This document shows, in pieces, positions 42,269-56,026 of a stretch of 64,000 nt of DNA. The notes below the pieces were generated by a model, which saw only the letters and a program-made list of their open reading frames with translations, was not told where the DNA came from and searched no databases. Origin of the DNA: Nocardioides plantarum (GTDB lineage Bacteria; Actinomycetota; Actinomycetes; Propionibacteriales; Nocardioidaceae). A program made the position numbers and the translations under genes. The stretch covers positions 1,984,001 to 2,048,000 of the forward strand of contig NZ_VDMS01000001.1 of assembly GCF_006346395.1 (NCBI RefSeq). Reading direction: 5' to 3'. The stretch's first letter is position 1, and each line of letters opens with the position of its first letter.

Positions 42269-44113
<1,845 letters not shown>

Positions 44114-44130: not shown

Positions 44131-44170
44131 CGACGGCCCCTCACCCCGACGTCGGGGTGAGGGGCCGTCG
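44131..44170. terminator. 40-bp perfect palindrome, terminator of pckG
   Basis: Bases 44131-44150 and 44151-44170 are exact reverse complements with no spacer, so the RNA stem has a 4-nt minimal loop. It starts 18 nt after the pckG stop. Confidence 0.85.
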
Positions 44171-44224: not shown

Positions 44225-45226
44225 ATGACGTACGGCCCGGACGAGCGTGCCCTGTTCGCCGACGGGGCCGCGACGCTCTACGACGAGATCGTGATGAGCC
44301 AGGGCATCGCCGCGGGCGACCCGCGCGTGGCCGACGGCGGCCCGGACCGGCCGGCCTTCGACCTGCTGGTCGACCTGGGCCTGGTTCAGCTCGACCGCGA
44401 CACCGACCGCTGGCTGCCCGAGGACCCCACGACCGTCCAGTCGCGGGTGGTCTCGCCACTGAGCCAGCAAGCGGCGCAGCTGCTCGAGGAGTCGTCGCAC
44501 TGGGCGCGGGCGTTCGGCTCCCTGAGCCAGTCGTGGCGGCGATCGCCGCTCTCCCAGGCGCGCGGCCCGTTCACCTACCTGCACGGCGACGCGATCGGAC
44601 CGTTCATCGCCGGCCTGGTCTCCGAGGCCGAGGAGGAGATGCTCACGGCTCAGCCGCAGGCCGGCCGCGACGCCGCCTCCCTCGCGGCCGCGGCGCTGCG
44701 CGACACCGCCGCGCTCGAGCGGGGCATGAAGATGCGCACGCTCTACCAGCACAGCGCGCGCCGCAGCTCCTTCACGGCCAAGTACGTCGCGGCGGTGACC
44801 GACCGCGGGGCCGAGGTCCGCACGCTCGACGAGTTCTTCAACCGGATGATCGTGGTGGACCGCCGCGTCGCGGTGATCCCGGCCAGCGACGACCTGACCA
44901 GCGCGGTCGCGGTCCGTGAGCCGTCGGTGGTGACCTACCTGGTCGACATCTTCGACCGCACGTGGGAGCGCGCGCGGCCGTTCACCAACCGCGAGTCGAC
45001 CACGATGAAGGACATCGCGGCCGAGCAGCGGGCGATGACGATCCGGATGCTGATCGAGGGCCACTCCGACCAGGTCAGCGCCAAGCGGCTCGGGGTCAGC
45101 CCCCGCACCTACGCGGGGTACGTCGCCGACCTCAAGCAGGAGTACGAGCGGGAGACCCGATTCCAGCTGGGCTACGCGATGGGGCAGGCCGGGGTCTCCG
45201 GCCAGGAGCCCGTCGACTCGGACTGA
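44225..45226 (+). CDS. LuxR-type HTH regulator with TrmB-like N-terminal half
   Basis: 333 aa. Residues about 5-100 look like a winged-helix/TrmB-like domain (ALFADGAATLYDEIVMSQG; FDLLVDLGLVQLDRDTDRWL). The middle (about 160-240) has RTLYQHSARRSSFTAKYVAA, TLDEFFNRMIVVDRRVAVIP, typical of the PLD-like sensor part of actinobacterial LuxR solos. A C-terminal LuxR helix-turn-helix follows (about 260-315; QRAMTIRMLIEGHSDQVSAK, RLGVSPRTYAGYVADLK). It converges, 42 bp apart, with a gene for a 45-aa secreted peptide, so peptide sensing is a reasonable hypothesis. Confidence 0.87.
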   Translation: MTYGPDERALFADGAATLYDEIVMSQGIAAGDPRVADGGPDRPAFDLLVDLGLVQLDRDTDRWLPEDPTTVQSRVVSPLSQQAAQLLEESSHWARAFGSLSQSWRRSPLSQARGPFTYLHGDAIGPFIAGLVSEAEEEMLTAQPQAGRDAASLAAAALRDTAALERGMKMRTLYQHSARRSSFTAKYVAAVTDRGAEVRTLDEFFNRMIVVDRRVAVIPASDDLTSAVAVREPSVVTYLVDIFDRTWERARPFTNRESTTMKDIAAEQRAMTIRMLIEGHSDQVSAKRLGVSPRTYAGYVADLKQEYERETRFQLGYAMGQAGVSGQEPVDSD

Positions 45227-45268
45227 CCCTGCTAGGGAGACGTCGTCAGCGGGTCGCAGCCGGAAAGG

Positions 45269-45406
45269 TCAGTGGCCGGGGCGGCAGGCGCCGCCGCAGC
45301 CCCACGAGGAGTCGTAGGCGTGAGCGGCCGGGGCCGAGAGGCCGATCAGCGACGCACCCAGGGCCGAGGCAGCCAGGGTCAGGGCGAGCTTACGAGCGAG
45401 CTTCAT
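45269..45406 (-). CDS. 45-aa secreted peptide precursor, mature YDSSWGCGGACRPGH predicted
   Basis: Reverse strand ATG 45406 to TGA. Residues 1-30 form a textbook signal peptide (MKLARKL, hydrophobic core, cleavage after SAPAAHA). The remaining 15 residues, YDSSWGCGGACRPGH, hold two cysteines spaced CGGAC and a tryptophan. No strong ribosome site is near the ATG; AGAAGGTG is about 11-18 nt upstream. It is convergent with the LuxR-type gene. A promoter region with an inverted repeat lies upstream (45458-45492). A signalling peptide is the working idea; a small bacteriocin or structural peptide is the alternative. Confidence 0.72.
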   Translation of the reverse strand: MKLARKLALTLAASALGASLIGLSAPAAHAYDSSWGCGGACRPGH

Positions 45407-45457
45407 GGAGATTCACACACCTTCTGGTCTCGGACCCACGGAAAGGTCCGTGAACGT

Positions 45458-45492
45458 ATTGTCGGTTGCGACCGCCAGGGTTGCCAGACAAT
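45458..45492 (-). promoter_or_regulatory. inverted-repeat operator candidate upstream of the secreted-peptide gene
   Basis: ATTGTC (45458-45463) and GACAAT (45487-45492) are an inverted pair enclosing GGTTGC/GGTTGCC-like sequence on the same strand, about 52-86 bp before the peptide ATG. The reverse strand offers TACGTT as a -10 just downstream of the left arm. This fits regulated transcription of the peptide, possibly by the adjacent LuxR-type protein (inference). Confidence 0.4.
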
Positions 45493-45612
45493 CGCCAGTG
45501 CAGTTTCGTGCATTGCAGTGATCCGCAGCCAGTCATAGCGAGTCATACCGCGACCTGCGCTCATCGGGCCCCTCCCCCGCCGGGCGGTGGCCCAAACCTG
45601 GCACCGACCAGC

Positions 45613-45643: not shown

Positions 45644-45656
45644 CACGGTCATGTGG

Positions 45657-45747
45657 CGGAGGCGGAGGGATTTGAACCCTCGATGGGGTTGTAGCCCCAA
45701 ACCCGCTTAGCAGGCGGGCGCCATAGACCGGACTAGGCGACGCCTCC
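45657..45747 (-). tRNA. tRNA-Ser (anticodon GCT)
   Basis: 91 nt class II tRNA. Acceptor arms GGAGGCG/CGCCTCC, anticodon stem CCCGC/GCGGG with loop CTGCTAA (GCT), long variable arm TTTGGGGCTACAACCCC, T-loop TTCAAAT and discriminator G. CCA is encoded at 45656-45654. Confidence 0.97.
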
Positions 45748-55081: not shown

Positions 55082-56026
55082 TCACGCCACAGGCCTCTCG
55101 AAGACTGCCAGGAACGAGTATGACTGCTCGCCATCGCCAATTCCGCACAACTCAAGCTGTGAGAGACCCAGATCAGCAGCGTGTTGCGCGATGCTTAATG
55201 GGTTGACAGGATTCGTACGCAGCGCGAACTTTTCACCATCGACCAAAACGGCATAATAAGGATTTAGTGCTGTATAGACTGGGTTGATGTCTGCGACAAT
55301 TAGTCGGCCTCCTGGTTTTAGCAACCCCGCGAAGGGTCGGAAATCTGGCGATGCTGGCATCGAAGACAGCACGAGGGAGAATAGAATGATGTCGAATTCT
55401 TCATCCCGGACCTGTAATGGAACTTCCGCAATGTCACCGAAGATTAGCCGGTTGTTCTTGCCCAACTTCGTTCCTGCGAGGTTGGCCTGAAAAGCGGAGC
55501 TCATCGAGAGGCTGAAGTCCGAATATGTCCAGTGCATATTGGACTTGTGGAAGAACTGGGTAGCAATCTGCTTTCCGGTTCCTCCGCCCAAGTCGAGGAC
55601 CTTGAAATTGGTCTTGCGCTTCAGGTGCGACCGAATCTGCGTCACCACCGCTTGGTGCGTCTTCAGCAGGTCCGACGAGTTGCGGAGATCATAATTTCCC
55701 GCAATATGGTCGTAGAAACTCTTGGCTTCCGACGCCGCGAACTCCTTGTCGAATAGCGACGGCTTCGCTTGCGCAACCACAGGTTGATCAGTGCCGATAT
55801 CGAGTTGAGCGGCAGCAAATTGACGGTTTAGGGTATCGGGCGGTTCAGCCGCAACTCCAAGTCCGCCGGATACAGGATCCACTGGCTTGGCACCAATCCT
55901 CGGCGGCCACACGCTAACTTCGCGACCGTTCAGGACAGCCCAAATGGCGAGGCCGATGAATGCGAATAACAGTGCGCCCCCAACGAAAGGTGCCGCAACG
56001 CCGAAGAACTCCTTGAACTCACCCAC
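55082..56026 (-). CDS. membrane-anchored class I methyltransferase, horizontally acquired
   Basis: 314 aa from GTG 56026 (GAGG upstream). One membrane helix (residues about 11-32), then the juxtamembrane motif GREVSVWPPRIG (34-45), a linker, and a cytosolic SAM methyltransferase from about 90. Its motifs are SFYDHIAGNYDLRNSSDLLK, motif I VLDLGGGTGKQIA (143-155), LIFGDIAEVPLQ, FDIILFSLVLSSM and LLKPGGRLIVADI. Base composition drops sharply compared with flanking genes, with many A/T-ending codons. Substrate unknown. The position between serS and the HAD operon and the membrane anchor point to an accessory, possibly defence or signalling, role (inference). Confidence 0.85.
   Translation of the reverse strand: MGEFKEFFGVAAPFVGGALLFAFIGLAIWAVLNGREVSVWPPRIGAKPVDPVSGGLGVAAEPPDTLNRQFAAAQLDIGTDQPVVAQAKPSLFDKEFAASEAKSFYDHIAGNYDLRNSSDLLKTHQAVVTQIRSHLKRKTNFKVLDLGGGTGKQIATQFFHKSNMHWTYSDFSLSMSSAFQANLAGTKLGKNNRLIFGDIAEVPLQVRDEEFDIILFSLVLSSMPASPDFRPFAGLLKPGGRLIVADINPVYTALNPYYAVLVDGEKFALRTNPVNPLSIAQHAADLGLSQLELCGIGDGEQSYSFLAVFERPVA

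Follow-up and report, generated by a model that had tools for sequence, protein, structure and literature searches.

Actinobacteria are regarded as signalling mainly through small molecules, gamma-butyrolactones for example, and most descriptions of quorum sensing by peptides come from Firmicutes (PMC10075063, PMC4748050). Peptide systems of the RRNPP type are recognized computationally by five criteria: a propeptide of 10-100 aa, a Sec signal, a receptor of 250-500 aa, direct neighbourhood of the two genes, and TPR repeats (PMC10075063). In NprR-NprX, the RRNPP system of Bacillus with a neutral protease in its regulon, a small exported precursor is encoded next to a cytosolic transcription regulator (PMC5641580).

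A comparable arrangement lies in the 64-kb window analysed here (C1:1984001-2048000 of a 4.68-Mb Nocardioides genome, labelled G000; Table 1), where the sequence-only reading had reported a regulator gene and a 45-aa ORF converging across 42 bp, exactly as we find them. The locus resembles NprR-NprX in its small precursor gene, its transcription regulator and a putative protease regulon, and differs from it in that the receptor is of unrelated fold, a TrmB/PLD-like domain flanked by two HTHs taking the place of TPR repeats, the genes are convergent and the phylum is another. Four of the five RRNPP criteria apply here if the Sec signal, predicted by rule of thumb, is counted, and TPR does not; RRNPP systems have been described from Firmicutes (PMC10075063). 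A locus with the RRNPP signature save TPR would thus work like an RRNPP system without being a member. In overall fold the regulator matches the archaeal TrmB and TrmBL2 proteins, from which the additional HTH at its C-terminus and its linkage to a peptide gene set it apart. The effectors known for TrmB are sugars. With the orphan or solo LuxR proteins of actinobacteria it shares the C-terminal HTH; unlike them, it has no acyl-homoserine-lactone-binding domain. In the open-licence papers searched we found no description of the pairing or of its core motifs, and an earlier report may exist elsewhere; we regard the unit as a probable chemical signalling system of a kind not recognized in the phylum before.

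Table 1. Features of the regulator-peptide locus, in window coordinates.
Feature	Position	Strand	Basis or remark
PEP carboxykinase (PEPCK) gene	42269..44113	+	upstream neighbour; context only, outside the unit
Perfect inverted repeat after PEPCK	44132..44169	.	terminator-like without T run; separates PEPCK from regulator
Regulator gene, 333 aa	44225..45226	+	TrmB-type fold with C-terminal HTH; orthologue in 140/150 congeneric genomes
N-terminal winged HTH, residues 5-65	44237..44419	+	AlphaFold secondary structure; Foldseek TrmBL2/TrmB
PLD-like / TrmB effector domain, residues 116-249	44570..44971	+	Foldseek: TrmB 2f5t, Nuc 1byr
C-terminal HTH, residues 256-321	44990..45187	+	best-conserved segment (GVSPRTYAGYVADLK)
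Gap of 42 bp between convergent stop codons	45227..45268	.	
Precursor peptide gene, 45 aa	45269..45406	-	MKLARKLALTLAASALGASLIGLSAPAAHAYDSSWGCGGACRPGH; Sec-type signal peptide
Conserved core D-S-S-W-G, residues 32-36	45299..45313	-	from 165 D..W cores
Hairpin at predicted 5' end of peptide transcript	45428..45453	-	arms 45428-45436 / 45445-45453
Predicted -10 element GACAAT	45458..45463	-	sequence inspection
Predicted -35 element CTGGCA	45482..45487	-	sequence inspection
Four-box operator TGCG-N6-TGCA-N-TGCA-N6-TGCA	45499..45527	-	15/16; ~92 bp upstream of peptide start
tRNA-Ser(gct)	45654..45747	-	downstream neighbour; context

The conserved regulator and its precursor

The regulator consists of an N-terminal winged HTH, a coiled coil, a PLD-like effector domain and a C-terminal HTH, and its AlphaFold model (pLDDT 85.8, pTM 0.53) places winged HTH, long helix, alpha/beta domain and helical HTH in this order. 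The top PDB matches in Foldseek were TrmBL2 (E 6e-13) and TrmB (E 2e-07), together with the sugar-binding domain of TrmB and nucleases of the PLD family, so that the earlier description as TrmB-like holds by fold. In Pfam, DUF7436 and TbsP_N matched the regulator below threshold, and the TrmB models matched some relatives only, mostly under the cut-off. The label LuxR-type is approximate: GerE had no match in the 333-aa regulator and matched 15 of 17 distant relatives, while the autoinducer-binding domain PF03472 matched neither the regulator nor the relatives searched. TPR repeats were likewise unmatched in the regulator.

Orthologues 325-354 aa long occur in 140 of the 150 congeneric (Nocardioides) genomes, nearly always singly and at 52-86% identity, the regulator of N. 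rubriscoriae being 86% identical to that of the window; strict orthologues were found in eight genera of the family. To score the association with small secreted genes, a test that the sequence-only reading had itself proposed for relatives of the regulator, we applied a blind rule (a secreted-looking ORF with [DS]xxW after residue 20, on the opposite strand and at most 500 bp from the regulator) to the 131 orthologue loci whose downstream sequence extends for 500 bp or more. Such an ORF was present at 120 of the 131 loci, as compared to 0/100 for DNA 900-1400 bp downstream, 1/131 upstream and 1% of dinucleotide shuffles, so the pairing exceeds chance. Inspection resolved the eleven failures and placed a peptide at 131/131 loci: three have longer precursors (L155-L157), two variant cores (L013, L070), one a different spacing (L056), and one a long leader (L030); at two loci (L071, L084) the core is preceded by no clear signal, and the peptide genes of L036 and L067 lie ~1.6 kb from the regulator.

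The ancestral block in the genus reads tRNA-Arg / PEPCK / regulator / peptide / tRNA-Ser. The peptide is present in 71 of 74 cases with PEPCK and in 34 of 36 without it, and the pair is also retained where the tRNA is missing. One genome, G057, offers a clean empty site at which regulator, peptide gene and operator are all gone and PEPCK and tRNA-Ser(gct) stand ~170 bp apart. Together, the sequence comparisons strongly support peptide and regulator as a conserved cognate pair. Elsewhere in the window, an ORF at 55082-56026 of ~56% GC (window 72%) has methyltransferase-like sequence and was perhaps recently acquired.

The precursors are 37-109 aa long and convergent with the regulator at a median gap of 137 bp. 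Signal peptides were called by a hydropathy rule, which predicts one at 127 loci; two loci have no clear signal. In the window's precursor, a cut behind AHA would yield YDSSWGCGGACRPGH. The invariant part of the Nocardioidaceae precursors is D-[T/S]-x-W-(G), in one to six tandem copies. Of 165 D..W cores, 144 have T or S at position 2 and 112 have G at position 5; S, G and T predominate at position 3. One copy is found in 100 of 127 precursors, two to six in 25 (DTGWD six times in one of them) and a variant core in two, and tandem cores of two to six copies account for ~12 changes along the regulator tree. A Cys C-terminal of the Trp is clade-specific and occurs in only 33 of the 127 precursors; we therefore reject the CGGAC disulfide, suggested earlier as a possible means of cyclisation, as an essential element, and as the signal it is not supported. 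The conserved element is thus a core of four to five residues rather than a disulfide ring and, with its tandem copies, resembles those of pheromone precursors, in keeping with the signal precursor proposed before. Core position 2 varies together with residues 159-161 in the PLD-like domain, but only three of six independent contrasts show a change at residue 160. The phylogenetic independence is too small to uphold this link, and the covariation is suggestive only, a lead rather than a result.

A candidate operator at peptide and metalloprotease genes

Upstream of the peptide genes we identified a four-box motif with the consensus TGCA-N6-TGCA-N-TGCA-N6-TGCA, and the window's copy is the top four-box score within the 64 kb. 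At least 13 of 16 positions match in 105 of 127 peptide promoters, as compared to a control maximum of 11, and the median distance to the start codon is 92 bp. Of the 94 matches to TGCANTGCA in 697 kb of locus DNA, 93 fall in peptide promoters. These counts strongly support the four-box site as the operator candidate of the peptide gene. Measured from the predicted start site, its centre falls at about -62, just upstream of the predicted -35 element, a usual position for an activator. Consensus scans for Sigma-70 promoters and terminators found nothing and also missed the predicted -10 element. About 16 loci of one clade (L037, L039, L043, L049, L051-L054, L056-L059, L062, L064, L065, L070) have regulator and peptide, mostly DTGW, and no recognizable TGCA operator, and a search revealed no motif that they have in common in its place.

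The inverted repeat that had been noticed in the peptide promoter region exists, but it is not the likely operator, since it maps to the predicted 5' terminus of the peptide mRNA and behaves there like a hairpin; the four-box candidate lies ~45 bp further upstream. The hairpin, with loop TTCCGTG, has five pairs that are 100% paired in 14 sequences, and two of them are changed on both sides in close relatives.

The operator recurs elsewhere in the genome. With up to two mismatches allowed, 20 genomes with the pair contain 1-7 sites each and G057 none, and the summed counts are 65 for the forward and 19 for the reversed pattern. The additional sites precede genes for secreted metalloproteases: an M4 protease of thermolysin type adjoining dapB, further M4 paralogues, and an M43 enzyme encoded between a HAD gene on one side and rimP/nusA on the other. 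Among 30 M4 protease genes, 18 have an operator scoring 13/16 or more at a distance of up to 420 bp; in the reversed control none does. An M4 protease is lacking from some genomes that carry the pair. At the dapB-linked M4 gene of the window's genome (C2:378415-379980) the operator reaches only 13/16, and two operator sites are kept at the M43 locus, where the protease gene appears lost. Where relatives have an M43 protease, two operator copies near 444.7-445.1 kb of C2 (L381:6751-7041) enclose a short secreted ORF carrying EVEQ repeats, by its appearance a target gene that has decayed or been rebuilt.

A putative pheromone circuit and its rivals

The analysis yielded a conserved pair, a repeated core, the regulator fold, an operator that recurs upstream of proteases, and one genome from which both genes are absent. 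We consider a peptide-pheromone circuit controlling secreted proteases the best explanation, with a probability of roughly 0.7. We infer that the precursor would be exported by Sec and processed extracellularly into a short linear peptide containing D-[S/T]-x-W-(G). The processed peptide would be taken up again and, inside the cell, bind the TrmB/HTH regulator through its PLD-like domain, presumably the peptide-binding one; that the regulator would read the peptide had also been suggested in the sequence-only reading. The regulator would occupy the four-box TGCA operator of its own peptide gene and of the M4 and M43 secreted metalloprotease genes and probably activates them, and the circuit is probably autoinducing. 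High cell density or confinement would then turn on secretion of shared proteases. Points that speak against this circuit are the ~16 loci with the pair and no recognizable operator, the genomes with the pair and no M4 protease, the apparently lost M43 target and 13/16 M4 site of the window's own genome, and the many class-level regulator homologues without a small secreted gene.

In the main rival, which we regard as unlikely, the peptide serves as endogenous inhibitor, or guardian, of the metalloproteases under the same control, with the regulator sensing something else and inducing both. An operator common to the peptide gene and the M4/M43 metalloprotease genes would fit this, and snake venoms provide a parallel, in which tandem xxW tripeptides (pEKW, pENW, pERW) inhibit venom metalloproteinases (PMC5308247). 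Like the precursors described here, those of the venom inhibitors are secreted, carry short Trp peptides in tandem and have a metalloprotease link (PMC5308247), and several of our precursors contain Trp-ended tandem copies, as an inhibitor would allow; the organisms, however, are unrelated, and the tie here is to a transcription regulator. We disfavour the inhibitor since the peptide gene is linked to the regulator, not to the proteases, both at the 131 loci and in distant families whose gene order differs. Genome G083 also argues against it, having the pair and its own operator only, with no M4 protease match, as do distant regulators that pair with Trp peptides by NRPS or AfsA-type genes rather than proteases.

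Still less probable is an effector (antimicrobial, toxin-like or a ribosomally made modified peptide) that is merely under the adjacent regulator. Small size, secretion, richness in Cys and Trp, clade-specific tails and a position beside a regulator would suit an effector, but no maturation, immunity or exporter gene was found adjoining the peptide gene, and no RiPP maturation enzyme nearby, the neighbours being PEPCK, tRNA-Ser and a small membrane protein. A tiny invariant core repeated up to six times between variable flanks, present in nearly all genomes of the genus, likewise speaks against this role. That regulator and peptide are functionally unrelated neighbours held together only by a conserved chromosome stretch, as descent within the ancestral block could suggest, is very improbable, given that the pair outlasts PEPCK or the tRNA and was lost jointly in G057, that related pairs stand in opposite orientation in other families, and that the same operator marks the peptide promoter.

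The pheromone circuit predicts a peptide, receptor, operator and target genes, all of them testable. If it holds, many orphan regulators would gain a ligand, and there would be a handle on secreted proteases and perhaps on antibiotic clusters.

Relatives beyond the family

Related regulators with Trp peptides also occur outside the Nocardioidaceae, here under genus labels (Kribbella-like, Streptomyces-like) that are inferred. In the Kribbella-like genus, 30 of 30 loci have a divergent precursor of 38-50 aa ending in C-x2-6-CW. All seven genomes of the Streptomyces-like genus have a divergent precursor by the regulator, with the ends SLWD, NIWA, NIWF, SVWD, NYWG and, twice, ANYWE. Regulators on Streptomyces and Kitasatospora plasmids are 37-46% identical to P0001 or the S. 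globosus regulator, and their peptides carry DVGWN three times, DTGWGAP three times, or DDTSWGG or CDTSWGG; six of the 15 plasmid loci sampled have such a small secreted gene adjoining the regulator. At class level, ~25 of 30 regulator homologues are without a small secreted gene. A similar peptide pair was not found at the paralogues L003 and L004 of the window's own genome, and no relative was found in the viral contigs searched.

We lean slightly towards a broader proposal, in which regulators with a TrmB fold and a C-terminal HTH are widespread actinobacterial receptors for short Trp pheromones (DxxWG, CxnCW, NYWE) and peptide quorum sensing extends across the Actinomycetes. If so, it would be directed at secreted proteases in the Nocardioidaceae, and in Streptomyces its target may be secondary metabolism.

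Several further loci were observed. A second regulator of the window's genome, near 1.55 Mb of C1, has a divergent secreted peptide ending in PCIGCW (L178:2108-2257; also L179), and this regulator type occurs in G000 and G070 only among the 150 congeneric genomes. The S. globosus plasmid NZ_CP030864.1 encodes a secreted peptide with three DTGWGAP copies (L434:972-1235), divergent from a homologous regulator and adjoining MbtH/NRPS genes. On Streptomyces plasmids, divergent small secreted genes with an NCPxDDxWxxxCP ending (L440:1128-1271, L441:1130-1333) adjoin the regulator and an AfsA-type gene, which suggests a signalling island.
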